Shown piece after piece: positions 1,047-7,749 of a stretch of 64,000 nucleotides of DNA. Both the position numbers and the translations under genes were made by a program. The notes beneath the pieces were generated by a model that had not been told where the DNA came from, searched no databases, and saw nothing but the letters and a program-made list of their open reading frames with translations. This DNA comes from Acidilobaceae archaeon (GTDB lineage: Archaea > Thermoproteota > Thermoprotei_A > Sulfolobales > Acidilobaceae). The DNA lies in NCBI GenBank assembly GCA_027037535.1, contig JALVZQ010000008.1:62001-126000 (forward strand). Direction: 5' to 3'. Position 1 is the stretch's first letter. Each line of letters opens with the position of its first letter.

Positions 1047-2282
1047 TCAAAGGGCGTTCCTAATTATGTTTCCTTTAGTTATTACAGTTAGAAGCCTATC
1101 ATAACCCCATATATATGATAGTTGGCTCAGCTTCTCGTAGTCCCAGATTAATATGTCGGCATAGGCTCCCTCGCGGATTGTTCCATGGTCCGGATATAAA
1201 TCGAGGCTCCATGCAGCGTTAACGGTGGCAGCGGCTAATGCTTCTAATGGTGTTAGACCCAGAAGATATACTGCGAGATCCAAAGTGGTTTGGAGTATTG
1301 GATTCATATTATTTGGATTATAGTCTGTTGCTACTCCTAGGTATACTCCGTTTTTCCTAAGTTGTTTTACCGGTGGTTTCTTGTCTGCAAATACTGATAA
1401 CATTGACGTTGGCAGGAGAGTAGCCACGGTTCTTGTCATGGCGAGGCCTGGTATTATAGACTCGGGGAGATACTCCAAGTGATCAATGCTGTATATCTCG
1501 TATTCCAAGGCCAGCCTAGAGCAGCCTATATTCGCTAGCTCATCTGAGTGTAGTCTTGTCTTTAACCCGTTTCTTATCCCCCAGGAAATTATCTTCTTTG
1601 TTTCTTCTACTGTAAATGCTCCTTTATCACAGAACACGTCCACGAATTCGAGCTTCTTTTCCGCGGCCAGAGGCACAAGTCTCCTAGTGAAACAGTCTAC
1701 GTATTCACTGCGCTTCTCCTTATACTCTCTCGGTATAACATGTGCTAGGAGGGTACCTATAACTGTCTGCTGAGCTCGTTTCTTTAGCTCCAATATTGCG
1801 TCAATGAGTTTTGCCTCATGCTCGTAGAGGAGTCCATAGCCTGTTTTAACTTCAACTACTGTTGTTCCGTGATCTAACATTTTGTCGAGGACTCTCAGCG
1901 CATCGCCGACTAGGTCTTCTAGAGGTGCTTTTCTAGTCTCTTCGACTGTATAATATATTCCACCGCCTGCTTCGAGTATCTCCGAGTATGTTCTCCCTTC
2001 TAGCTTCATCCATAGCTCATGGCTCCTATCTCCTGCGAAAATGAGATGAGTGTGCGTGTCAATCAGGCCTGGTGTCACGATCCTGCCTTCTGCATTTATT
2101 ATAAGGGATGCCTCGTATCGATCCGCATCACTGTCTGATCCGATCCATACAATTTTACTGTCTTTTACTGCCACTGCCGCATTATGTATTATACCTGCTG
2201 AATCCTTGTCGACTCTTCGAAGAGGTCCCTCTTTGAAGGTTACTAGTTCTCCGATATTTCTTATCAAGAGATCTACTCTCAT
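1047..2282 (-). CDS. hutI: Imidazolonepropionase
   Basis: This 411-residue amidohydrolase would open the imidazolone ring of 4-imidazolone-5-propanoate to formiminoglutamate, the third step of histidine degradation. Visible metal and catalytic motifs are GLIDTHTHLIFAGDRSHE (HxH), RLHSDELANIG, SIDHLEYL and VATDYNPN near the C-terminus, all in family order. Length matches bacterial HutI (about 400-420). Its ATG overlaps the stop of the upstream gene as ATGA, so it is translationally coupled to the ureohydrolase. Together with hutU across the divergent promoter this makes a hut cluster, and the context separates it from other amidohydrolases. Confidence 0.93.
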   Translation of the reverse strand: MRVDLLIRNIGELVTFKEGPLRRVDKDSAGIIHNAAVAVKDSKIVWIGSDSDADRYEASLIINAEGRIVTPGLIDTHTHLIFAGDRSHELWMKLEGRTYSEILEAGGGIYYTVEETRKAPLEDLVGDALRVLDKMLDHGTTVVEVKTGYGLLYEHEAKLIDAILELKKRAQQTVIGTLLAHVIPREYKEKRSEYVDCFTRRLVPLAAEKKLEFVDVFCDKGAFTVEETKKIISWGIRNGLKTRLHSDELANIGCSRLALEYEIYSIDHLEYLPESIIPGLAMTRTVATLLPTSMLSVFADKKPPVKQLRKNGVYLGVATDYNPNNMNPILQTTLDLAVYLLGLTPLEALAAATVNAAWSLDLYPDHGTIREGAYADILIWDYEKLSQLSYIWGYDRLLTVITKGNIIRNAL

Positions 2283-3208
2283 ATTATTACCCCGTGTAAC
2301 ATGTATAATGCTAATTTGGATGCTAGTCTTATCGTTCTATTTCCGTTATCTTTTATTGGTACGATTTCTACAATGTCTGCTCCCTTAACATTCATATTGT
2401 TAAGGACGTAGTCTAGGATCTGTATTGTTTCCCTTGGATGAAGCCCTGGGCTCGAGGGACTGTTAACACCGGGAGCATATGTAGAGTCTAAATGATCAAT
2501 GTCGAGTGTTATATAGTGGACTTGGCAGGTTTCTTTCAGGTCTTTTAGATCCCTGTAGATTTCTTCTATTCTAGTCCACACGTCTCTTACGCCATAGAAG
2601 CTTATTCCAAGTTCCTTTGCTCTATTCGCTAAATAGGATGGGTTAGAGTATTCTCCTATACCTATAATTACAGTCTTAATACGATTCCTATGAGTCTGGT
2701 ATAATTCGTATAGCCAGCTCCCGCTTGTTACTCCACCCGATATTGATCTTAGATCGAAGTGTGCGTCTAGCATTACTAGTCCTACACAGTCGTATACCTC
2801 GAGGAGACCTTCTAGTATGGGACCCGTTATACTATGGTCTCCTCCTAGGAAGAGTGTAAACTTGTTTTCTTCGAATAATTTTCTTGACGCTTCTCTGATT
2901 ATTCTCTTAGTTTTCTCCCAGTTTCTTGGATACAGAATTATGTCCCCGTAGTCCTTGGGTTTGCATGGTAACTGTCCTTTGGAAGGACTATAGTCAGGGC
3001 TAGCATAAATATTGTCTCGAAGGAGCCTAGGTGCGTGTCTTGCACCTGGATCCCCACCAGTACTCCAATCCCACGGCACTCCTACTAATCCTATTCTATT
3101 ACACGGTTCTTTCTCGTGGATCCTCTTATCCTGAGGATCCTGAAGCACCTTATAGTAGGGTTTAACAAATAGATCCTTCGCCTCCAAACGGCTACACCAG
3201 GATAGCAT
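2279..3208 (-). CDS. hutG: Formimidoylglutamase / agmatinase-family ureohydrolase
   Basis: Arginase-fold enzyme with the binuclear manganese motifs FLGGDHSITGP, LDAHFDLR and LDIDHLDSTYAPG. Its position between hutI and hutU favours hydrolysis of N-formimino-L-glutamate to glutamate plus formamide rather than agmatine hydrolysis, but sequence alone does not exclude agmatinase. The frame opens at 3253 with a hydrophobic stretch (LLVLIAIATIML) that is unlike the family and would run into the divergent hutU promoter. I therefore prefer the internal ATG at 3208, with TTG 3187 (just at a GGAGGCG) as an alternative. The stop overlaps the hutI ATG by 4 bases. Confidence 0.86.
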   Translation of the reverse strand: MLSWCSRLEAKDLFVKPYYKVLQDPQDKRIHEKEPCNRIGLVGVPWDWSTGGDPGARHAPRLLRDNIYASPDYSPSKGQLPCKPKDYGDIILYPRNWEKTKRIIREASRKLFEENKFTLFLGGDHSITGPILEGLLEVYDCVGLVMLDAHFDLRSISGGVTSGSWLYELYQTHRNRIKTVIIGIGEYSNPSYLANRAKELGISFYGVRDVWTRIEEIYRDLKDLKETCQVHYITLDIDHLDSTYAPGVNSPSSPGLHPRETIQILDYVLNNMNVKGADIVEIVPIKDNGNRTIRLASKLALYMLHGVII

Positions 3209-3275
3209 TATTGTCGCAATAGCTATTAAGACTAATAATATATCTAGAACCACTATATACTAGCGGTGAATCCCT
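3209..3275. promoter_or_regulatory. Divergent hutG/hutU promoter region
   Basis: Only a few dozen bases separate hutU (GTG 3276) from the opposing hutG. An AT-rich run TAATAATATATC (about 3232-3244) is suitably placed as the hutU TATA box, with SD GGTGA at 3264-3268, 7 bases before the GTG. On the other strand TAGTATATAGTG (about 3250-3261) could serve hutG. The two promoters interleave, which would allow co-regulation. No operator is recognisable. Confidence 0.5.
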
Positions 3276-5003
3276 GTGTCTTCCCTTGACTCCTATAAAT
3301 CAAAGCCCATATGGAAACTAATAGAGAAAGGATACTATGATCCTACACGAAAACTAAGAGTACGACACATACGCGGAGAAGAACTCCACGTTAGTAGCGG
3401 TAGCTGGCAACTAGAAGGTCCTCTCAGAATGCTATTCCATGTTCTAGACCCAGAAGTCGCAAAGGATCCTGAAAACCTAATAGTATATGGCGGAACGGGG
3501 AGAGCTGCTCGAAGCTGGGAGGCATTCGAAGCAATTGTAAATACGCTTATGGAGATGAAAGAGGATGAGACCCTCGTAGTACAGTCGGGTAAACCAGTAG
3601 CTGTATTCAAGACACACAAGATGGCGCCAAGGGTCGTTATATCCAACGCGGTATTGGTTCCTAAATGGGCAGACTGGGAGTATTTCAGAGAGCTCGAGAA
3701 GAAAGGGCTAATAATGTATGGTCAAATGACTGCTGGATGCTGGGCCTACATCGGTACACAGGGAATACTTCAGGGGACTTATGAGACGTTAGCGTTTGCC
3801 GCTGAAAAACACTTCCCTGAAGGAAGCCTTGAGGGGAGACTAGTCCTAACTGCAGGGCTCGGAGAGATGGGGGGAGCCCAGCCCTTAGCAGTAACCATGA
3901 ATGGTGGAATAGCTATCGTAGTGGAAGTAGACAAGAGAATGATAGAGAGAAGAATACGACACGGCTATCTAGATACATGGACGGATAGCCTCGACAAGGC
4001 GCTTGACCTCGCATCCAAGTATAAGGAGAAGAGAGAACCTATAAGCATAGGCCTCCTCGGCAACGCGGCAGAGATATATGAAGAAATCCTAAAGCAAGGA
4101 ATAGTTCCAGACGTGGTCACAGATCAGACCCCAGCCCATGATCCTCTGAGCTATGTACCCGCAGGTATGAGCTTGGAGGAAGCTGAGAAGCTTCGCCAAG
4201 AGAACCCCGAGAAATATACTGAGCTCTCGATGAAGAGCATGAGGAGGCAAGTAGAGGCTATGGTCGGATTCCTAAAGAAGGGAAGCGTCGTATTCGAATA
4301 TGGAAACAACATAAGGAAAATGGCATATGAGGCAGGATTCACTGATGCGTTCCTCTTCCCGGGATTCGTACAGGCATATATCAGGCCTATGTTCGAGGAA
4401 GGACGAGGCCCATTTAGATACACTAGCCTAACCGGTAACGAGAAAGACATATACAGGCTCGACGACGAGCTAATAGCCACATTCAAAGACAATAAGAGGC
4501 TTGTGAGATGGGTCGAAAAAGCTAGGAAACACGTAAAGTTCCAAGGTCTACCGGCAAGAGTCGTCTGGCTAGGATATGGAGAGAGAGCAAGGTTCGGGAA
4601 ACTAATGAATAGCCTAGTAAGACTAGGCGAAATCGGCCCCATGTGGATAGGAAGAGATCACCTTGATGCTGGATCAGTCGCGAGCCCCTATAGGGAAACA
4701 GAAGGCATGATAGATGGTAGCGACGCTGTCGGAGACTGGCCCGTATTGAACGCGTTATTAAATGCCGCGGCTGGCGCTACATGGGTATGCTTCCATCATG
4801 GTGGTGGAACAGGTATAGGGTACAGTCTCCATGCAGGGCTAGGACTTGTACTGGATGGTAGCGAGGAGAGCGAGAAAAGGGCGGATCTAGTTCTTACGGC
4901 GGATCCTGGTATGGGAGTAGTCAGGCATGCGGATGCAGGATACAAGCATGCTAGGAAGACAGCGTGCGAGAAGGGTATATGGATGCCTATGCTGAGTTGT
5001 TAA
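3276..5003 (+). CDS. hutU: Urocanate hydratase
   Basis: At 575 residues it matches urocanases (about 555), which hydrate urocanate to imidazolonepropionate using tightly bound NAD. Family signatures are [50 protein letters not shown], the NAD-binding [40 protein letters not shown] and [20 protein letters not shown]. The bacterial ARICW signature, which carries the cysteine numbered 410 in Pseudomonas, reads ARVVW here (about residue 429), so that Cys is Val. GTG start with SD GGTGA at 3264. No histidine ammonia-lyase gene is present in the window. Confidence 0.95.
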
Positions 5004-5758: not shown

Positions 5759-6235
5759 ATGTCCTGGATAATCGTAGAGATTGAATCTGGAATAAGGAAA
5801 TGCGATAACTTAGAGAGGGATCTAAAAAAGCTACCGACATGGCCACCTAAGCTAAAGATGACTATTGCTGAGGCCGTATCTAAATGTATCGTGAACTTGA
5901 TCGGAAGAGAATACGTAGAGGAGATCTACTACGTTGATCTAAGCGGAGGAGAGCCGAGATCTGATTTTCTTGGAAGAGATATTGATCTTATAGTAAAGGT
6001 TAAACCTGATCTTAAACCTGTAGAGAGGGACCTAGAGAAAATCCTAGAGAGCCGCTTTAATACTCAACTATATTATATAATTGGAGAGGTTGCATTGACT
6101 ATTTTAAAGCCTGATCTCATAGAAATACACGTTATAACTTCTTACGATTCATATTATGGACGCCTTGTTAGGAGTCCATTTACATACGCTATCCGCGTCT
6201 GGCCTCCCGATCAGAGTTATTCTCCCACACTTTGA
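5759..6235 (+). CDS. Nucleotidyltransferase-like protein (paralogue of the convergent gene)
   Basis: The frame is open from 5711, but ATG 5759 has SD AGGTG 9 bases upstream and gives MSWIIVEIES, so I use it (158 residues). The core YYVDLSGGEPRSDFLGRDID resembles a minimal Pol-beta-type nucleotidyltransferase: a Gly-Gly turn followed by a DxD strand (RDIDLIVKV). A later strand, IEIHVITSYDSYYGRL, may carry the third acidic residue. The last 47 bases overlap the convergent gene at 6189, which encodes a paralogue with the same two blocks. Substrate and role are unknown; no HEPN partner is seen. Confidence 0.65.
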   Translation: MSWIIVEIESGIRKCDNLERDLKKLPTWPPKLKMTIAEAVSKCIVNLIGREYVEEIYYVDLSGGEPRSDFLGRDIDLIVKVKPDLKPVERDLEKILESRFNTQLYYIIGEVALTILKPDLIEIHVITSYDSYYGRLVRSPFTYAIRVWPPDQSYSPTL

Positions 6236-6758
6236 TAAGCGATCTACTTCGATTTGCTACCATTTGATAATAAGGATAACAATCCGATCCTGTAACTAGG
6301 TGCACTTCTATTATATTAGGGATTCCTAGTAATTTATAGAAGTCTTCGTCGAATACCTCCTGAAGAATAAAGTACACATTCTCTTCAAGGCGTTTTTCTA
6401 TTGATTTCTCCTTAATTCTATTCTTGCAATTCTTATCTAGTACAATTATAATATCGAGGTCTTTTCCTCCATGACCGCTATAATAGCTGTGCTGGCCTCC
6501 AGTCAAATCGGCTATATATATTTCCTTTATACAATCCCTGTAGCAAGAAGTTTCTGGGTTAACTAGACAATATACTATTTGGTCAGCTATATAGCGTTTA
6601 AGATACTGCCATGTATGGCTTGTATATTTTTCATGTCGTAAAGTCTTTATTATCCTTTCTATTCCTCCCGGATAACGCTGAATAAGTTTTGGCAGTTCTC
6701 TACTGAGCCGTGTATAGACGCATCCAGCAATTTTTTCTTCGCACAACCGGTATCCCAT
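6189..6758 (-). CDS. Nucleotidyltransferase-like protein (paralogue of the convergent gene)
   Basis: 189 residues. The block IYIADLTGGQHSYYSGHGG followed by KDLDIIIVL aligns with YYVDLSGG...GRDIDLIVKV of the facing gene, and IEVHLVTGSDCYPYY with its IEIHVITSYDSYYG. Both proteins end in a short IKVW/IRVW strand. The N-terminal 70 residues are not shared obviously and hold several cysteines (CEEKIAGC). A TATA-like element about 30 bases upstream of the ATG suggests a leaderless transcript. The MNT-like fold is inferred from the GG...DxD pattern; function is unknown. Confidence 0.65.
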   Translation of the reverse strand: MGYRLCEEKIAGCVYTRLSRELPKLIQRYPGGIERIIKTLRHEKYTSHTWQYLKRYIADQIVYCLVNPETSCYRDCIKEIYIADLTGGQHSYYSGHGGKDLDIIIVLDKNCKNRIKEKSIEKRLEENVYFILQEVFDEDFYKLLGIPNIIEVHLVTGSDCYPYYQMVANRSRSLIKVWENNSDREARRG

Positions 6759-6831: not shown

Positions 6832-7749
6832 TTATTGATAGCCTGGAGAAGGTTGTGTTTGTCCTCTAACTATTGCGCATGAAGCTGTGCTAATTAGAAG
6901 TTCTAATGAGTCCATGAAGCTTAGTATGAAGCCTCTCATAGCAGGGTTCTTGATTAAGCTTATTTTCTCTTTGACGCTTTTAATTTCTTCTTTTGCCAGA
7001 CCTAGTCTCTTTATGCTATTGTTTGATAGTCCTCCCATAACCGATAATATTATAGCACGTATAGCTTCTCTCAAGTGTTTTTTCTCTTCTTCGTCTTCTA
7101 TCGCATTAAGAGACGAGAGTAAATGCCTAAACTGAACTACTATTGTCTTAAGTATTCCTACTGCTGACGGATCCATTGGTGTTTCCTGGCACGATATTAT
7201 TCCTCTCTTTGACATTACATGGGTTATTTCATTTATTCGCTCTTGTATTGTCTTGAATATGTTCTCTAGTTCTTCATCATTCTCTGAAACATCAATTGCC
7301 TCAAGCATGAATCTTCTTATATCTTTAATTATAGTAGCTGAGTCAGAATTACTACTGTTAATCATTATCTCTATGCGATCAGGATATACCGTATAATTTA
7401 CTACATAGTCTGACTCCTCTAATTCTCTTAGACTTTCTTCTACTAGACTCATAGTTGAACGCGACGGATACAAGTAGACCCAGTCTATGCCTTTTGAGAA
7501 TGCACATTCTACGATCTCGGATAACCTCATGCTTTTTATGTTTGAGCCGTATTTAACGATTAGTGATTTGAGCCTTCTCTCTGTATCTTCTGTACTTGGG
7601 AGTATTTTGAGATGAGCACCTTCATCTACTACTATGACCTCGTCTCCTGCTATGAGACCAAGTTTCTTTACCCAGTTTTTGGGAAGCGTAATTATAAGGC
7701 TAGAGCCTCCCAGCCGCTGTACGCGGCGTTTAGTTACTTGAATACTCAA
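6832..7749 (-). CDS. AbrB-PhoU phosphate-type transcriptional regulator
   Basis: 305 residues. Residues about 1-50 form a SpoVT/AbrB swapped-hairpin DNA-binding domain (RVQRLGGSSLIITLPKNWVK, GDEVIVV). The remainder is helical and PhoU-like, with SENDEELENIFKTIQERINE and a long C-terminal helical bundle. This archaeal architecture is annotated as phosphate uptake regulator, presumably linking metal/phosphate-state sensing to DNA binding. No Pst transporter is nearby, so the target regulon is unknown. A palindrome TTAACGGCGTTAA sits beside the likely TATA box (CATATAAAT, about 7783-7791), consistent with autoregulation. Confidence 0.82.
   Translation of the reverse strand: MSIQVTKRRVQRLGGSSLIITLPKNWVKKLGLIAGDEVIVVDEGAHLKILPSTEDTERRLKSLIVKYGSNIKSMRLSEIVECAFSKGIDWVYLYPSRSTMSLVEESLRELEESDYVVNYTVYPDRIEIMINSSNSDSATIIKDIRRFMLEAIDVSENDEELENIFKTIQERINEITHVMSKRGIISCQETPMDPSAVGILKTIVVQFRHLLSSLNAIEDEEEKKHLREAIRAIILSVMGGLSNNSIKRLGLAKEEIKSVKEKISLIKNPAMRGFILSFMDSLELLISTASCAIVRGQTQPSPGYQ

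Follow-up and report, generated by a model that had tools for sequence, protein, structure and literature searches.

Results

Genes at the Locus

The window, a 64,000-nucleotide stretch, belongs to an archaeal genome of 1.65 Mb whose closest named relatives are Acidilobaceae MAGs. It contains a convergent pair of genes, designated A and B, with the following features.

5759–6235, forward strand: gene A, encoding a 158-aa minimal nucleotidyltransferase-like protein (conserved start; family profile; dN/dS 0.035)
5936–5950, forward strand: DLSGG, the loop of A predicted to bind nucleotide, conserved in A proteins except those of family f7 (deleted in 7/7)
5975–5995, forward strand: RDIDLIV, whose D74 and D76 make up the DxD of A, predicted metal ligands that are unchanged in 53/53 members
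6119–6139, forward strand: IEIHVIT, third carboxylate (E122, invariant in 53/53) and His of A, aligning with ELHVVT of archaeal MNTs
6189–6235: 47-bp overlap of the A and B 3′ ends, of variable length among relatives (47 bp down to a small gap)
6189–6758, reverse strand: gene B, encoding a 189-aa paralogue with extra N-terminal helices (family profile; AF2 pLDDT 85; dN/dS 0.041)
6291–6311, reverse strand: IEVHLVT, third carboxylate (E151, invariant) and His of B
6444–6464, reverse strand: KDLDIII, containing the DxD predicted metal ligands of B (invariant)
6495–6509, reverse strand: DLTGG, predicted nucleotide-binding loop of B (GG in 20/21 B members; GA in genome G029)

The start of gene A was placed at ATG 5759 (MSWIIVE...), a position shared by relatives; a longer frame from GTG 5711 is not conserved among them and was rejected. 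A preliminary description, made from the window's sequence, had reported three blocks common to both proteins (DLSGG/DLTGG, RDIDLIV/KDLDIII, and IEIHVIT/IEVHLVT) and a 47-base overlap of the 3′ ends, all of which were located, and had proposed that A and B are paralogues. The paralogy was borne out: the proteins share 33% identity over 138 columns (BLASTP, E = 4e-16), and comparison of the A and B family profiles gave 99.8% (hhalign, E = 4.5e-28), so the likeness is not due to chance. Both are genuine genes under strong purifying selection, with dN/dS values against a congener of 0.035 (A) and 0.041 (B) that remain low when codons near the overlap are excluded. Scanning the window for Rfam families and tRNAs returned no match.

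Relationship to Minimal Nucleotidyltransferases

Searches of A and B against Pfam, NCBIfam, PADLOC, PHROGs, and PDB sequences gave no credible match. In the Pfam scan at the curated cut-off, both were below detection by PF01909 (NTP_transf_2), a profile that matched nine other nucleotidyltransferases (NTases) in the window's own genome, A and B not among them. In hhalign comparisons with 26 archaeal minimal nucleotidyltransferases (MNTs), A (without the f7 proteins) scored 93.6% (E = 2e-7) and B 87.5% (E = 3.6e-6); among the controls, reversed alignments did not exceed 8.2% (E = 0.004), and each of 100 column shuffles had E ≥ 0.015. The similarity to known Pol-β members is thus significant (in round figures, 94% and 88% versus controls of ≤8%). 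The GG loop, DxD, and EIHVIT columns of A/B stand opposite GS, DxD, and ELHVVT of the MNTs, most readable members of which have a HEPN gene immediately upstream. The sequence hallmarks of Pol-β enzymes are present as well, with a DxD and a third carboxylate on a later strand (D74, D76, and E122 in A numbering; 53/53) and a G[GS] motif upstream of the DxD in both window proteins. Outside the family, the combined profile produced weak matches (E = 1e-5 to 4e-3), and four such loci were examined; three are MNTs directly adjoining a HEPN gene and one is the C-terminal NTase domain of a transporter. A fusion of this kind, an amino-acid transporter with a C-terminal NTase domain (L120:596–2137, also G000:C5:21524; GSHARNQPHMAGDLDILIV), adjoins aldolase-like and PfkB-like genes.

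AF2 models were examined as single chains of A and of B. The A model had a pLDDT of 77, and MNT antitoxins ranked first in its Foldseek search (7bxo; prob 0.95, TMt 0.50), with HI0073 also among the best matches, at weak E-values of 0.03–0.3. The B model was of higher confidence (pLDDT 85) and has an A-like order of core elements after its longer helical N-terminus; its Foldseek search, with the motif loop at a pLDDT below 50, yielded no significant NTase match and no credible alternative. Assignments of B as an S-adenosylmethionine synthetase or a ribosomal protein were dismissed, at Foldseek probabilities of ≤0.29. The order of elements in both models fits an α-β-β-α-β core, which Foldseek associated with MNTs for A (at weak E-values) and with no NTase for B; the NTase core looked for in fold predictions was therefore recovered for A but not for B, which may nonetheless share the fold. 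The earlier suggestion of a minimal Pol-β-type transferase is supported by the profile comparison, the MNT matches outside the family, and Foldseek for A but not B. A and B are very likely members of the NTase superfamily, an assignment that for B falls short of proof.

Conservation and Asymmetry of the Predicted Active Site

None of the 53 members departs from the DxD or the third carboxylate. Of the 21 B proteins, 20 keep the GG loop, as do the A proteins outside f7 and the single-copy relative C. In f7 it is deleted as a block from all seven A proteins and retained by their B partners, and the motif is altered in the distant genome G317 and in B of G029. Two further positions distinguish the groups: the position just before the DxD is occupied by Arg in A, by Lys in nearly every B, and by a hydrophobic residue in C, and the GG-to-DxD spacing is 9 residues in A and 11 in B. 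As judged from these sequences, a putative division of labor is best indicated by the motif asymmetry, with B keeping the nucleotide loop nearly everywhere. The preliminary description had offered an active/regulatory pair as one possibility; this fits f7, where 7/7 A proteins lack the GG loop. In the window, both proteins carry every motif.

Co-occurrence, Arrangement, and Loss

Overlapping sets of 214 order-level, 229 class-level, and 397 phylum-level genomes, many of them MAGs, were searched and the regions identified were then examined. All 23 genomes in which both could be seen carry A together with B. They are convergent in 6 genomes (genera g1 and g8), tandem with A preceding B in 12 (families f7 and f10), and unlinked in 5 (genera g13 and g7, and G218); the two genes clearly do occur together elsewhere, contrary to what would have spoken against the preliminary description, and the convergent arrangement noticed in the window is seen in six genomes. 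The unlinked copies in G016 and G218 are truly apart, because both lie well inside long contigs. The sole A without a B is in G182, where the contig ends in A, and G169 has fragments of A and B across two contigs.

Both genes are absent from the congeners G001 and G004, the latter 99% complete. In G122, the A-like and B-like genes (L118 and L119) have decayed on different contigs and are broken in several frames, and neighboring ORFs on these contigs stay open; G122 is a MAG, so error is possible. G317 carries its own adjacent pair of long-branched relatives. Within the window's family, 10 genomes carry C, and all of them lack both A and B. The A and B distances correlate with r = 0.94, much of which shared ancestry alone would give. 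The strict co-occurrence, joint loss, and joint decay support the earlier idea that the paralogues act as a pair; co-occurrence and correlated divergence partly reflect shared ancestry and are no proof of contact.

Origin of the Pair and of the Overlap

In the tree, the B proteins of all families form one supported clade (95/92). The A proteins of Acidilobaceae, of f10, and of f7 are each supported, and the branch joining them is unsupported. On this phylogeny, the A/B split most likely predates the families and would represent an ancient duplication. The inverted duplication proposed in the preliminary description was rejected on the tree and gene orders: the split is older than several families, and outside two genera the genes are tandem or unlinked. 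Within those two genera, the overlap measures 47, 26, 4, 14, and 14 bp, plus one small gap. Convergence and overlap are lineage-specific traits, and a functional role for the 3′-end overlap was rejected because its length drifts.

Gene Neighborhoods

In Acidilobaceae, the genes preceding B encode reverse gyrase, a nitrilase-like protein, and an AbrB/PhoU-like protein, often with a CBS gene too, and in f7 the tandem pair sits between a metallophosphoesterase and a RIO-like kinase; the reverse gyrase, the metallophosphoesterase, and the kinase were named from their sequences. Neighborhoods are stable within families and have nothing in common between families, so no pathway could be derived from operon context and this approach was rejected. 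As the preliminary description had noted for the window, no HEPN gene is beside the pair: none was found among 571 ORFs of the A/B neighborhoods, nor was a HEPN domain found inside A, B, or C. No A/B relative was found in viral contigs. The GSX10DXD motif that marks MNTs of HEPN/MNT modules is not present in A or B, which have GG and 9 or 11 residues before the DxD.

Two other features of the region were recorded. Directly upstream of B, window positions 6832–7749 encode an AbrB/MazE-type N-terminus on a longer PhoU-like protein, and orthologues hold the same place in Acidilobaceae. Positions 1047–5003 contain genes that resemble those of histidine degradation (imidazolonepropionase-, formimidoylglutamase-, and urocanase-like, as read from sequence); reverse gyrase is present in this archaeon as well.

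Discussion

In these hot-vent crenarchaea, A and B are probably subunits of one obligate heteromeric, and most plausibly heterodimeric, enzyme of the Pol-β superfamily. The two proteins would be related to archaeal MNTs, with a paralogous MNT partner taking the place of the HEPN protein. The GG loop and DxD...E carboxylates of B, and of any intact A, would bind NTP-Mg2+, and the bound NTP would then be used for NMP transfer onto a target, either a protein or a small molecule. B would be the catalytic subunit and A a co-catalytic or regulatory one that positions the substrate. In f7, B would be the sole NTP-binding subunit because A has lost its nucleotide-binding loop there. More tentatively, and with some doubt, a heteromer of paralogous NTases in which the GG-less subunit of one lineage keeps its carboxylates could point to an asymmetric or composite active site, to which C might be the homomeric alternative.

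Three other explanations were weighed against an obligate heteromer. A and B could be NTases that work independently in distinct though related roles, such as on two substrates of one pathway, and never form a complex, and their joint retention would then reflect the common pathway. The full motif set found in each protein in most lineages fits such an arrangement, as do the five genomes in which the genes are unlinked; we nevertheless consider it unlikely, since neither gene was seen alone in the sampled genomes, the contig-end case aside, and since an A protein that keeps DxD and E without the GG loop, as in f7, is easier to account for as a subunit than as a stand-alone enzyme.

The remaining two readings appear more improbable still. 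In one, the pair resembles a toxin-antitoxin system, with one NTase modifying its counterpart or keeping it in check in the manner of MntA and HepT; the nearest relatives are indeed HEPN-partnered MNTs, and MntA adenylylates its partner (PMC7641770). Set against this are the lack of HEPN genes, of PADLOC or PHROGs matches, and of relatives in viral contigs, together with the retention of both genes when unlinked and with neighborhoods that are conserved within families, which speak against a mobile toxin-antitoxin module. In the other, equally improbable reading, the NTase folds would serve as a noncatalytic binding scaffold. Heterodimeric NTase-fold pseudoenzymes are known (NF45-NF90; PMC11952958) and the GG loop is deleted from f7 A, but the DxD and third carboxylate are invariant in 53/53 members and B keeps its GG in 20/21.

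Many archaeal genomes encode minimal NTases among their commonest small proteins, and these enzymes are mostly known from toxin-antitoxin modules, as partners of HEPN proteins (PMC2701414). MntA uses its GSX10DXD motif to transfer AMP onto its HEPN partner (PMC7641770). The archaeal MNTs of HepT/MntA modules (PF01909) are similar to A/B in size and in their order of β strand, G-loop, DxD, and β strand with ELH/EIHVVT, and they provide the best profile match and the best fold match of A. A/B differ from them in having GGE with 9–11 residues before the DxD rather than GSX10DXD, a basic residue before the DxD, a longer N-terminus (most so in B), a paralogous NTase and never HEPN as the partner, and similarity to PF01909 that is below detection. 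Kanamycin nucleotidyltransferase is dimeric, and its nucleotide and substrate sites are built by both subunits (PMC4631478); unlike A and B, which have no such domain, this homodimer carries a C-terminal helical domain. The DZF domains of NF45-NF90 are paralogous NTase-fold domains that form a heterodimer (PMC11952958), an association that for A/B is putative, but these eukaryotic pseudoenzymes lack key catalytic residues that A and B of the window retain. HI0073/HI0074 (1no5) also consists of two small subunits, and its NTase subunit is among the Foldseek matches of A. Its second subunit is a helical HEPN-like protein and not, as in A/B, a second NTase.

The A/B family has no Pfam or NCBIfam coverage; it may have been described earlier under an arCOG number, the literature covered here being that under open license. 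Its interest lies in a paralogue occupying the place of HEPN, in a pair kept through gene shuffling, and in the discarding of one subunit's nucleotide loop in one lineage. If the heteromeric interpretation is true, these proteins would form a natural series for the evolution of a heteromeric enzyme and a pseudo-subunit, and genes that are now hypothetical would gain a testable function. Outside the window, the window's genome has a pair of neighboring frames (315 and 327 aa; G000:C8:285537–286672) that each contain PF01909, and similar adjacent PF01909 pairs in G002, G003, G004, G005, G007, and G008 make this another conserved NTase-like gene pair.
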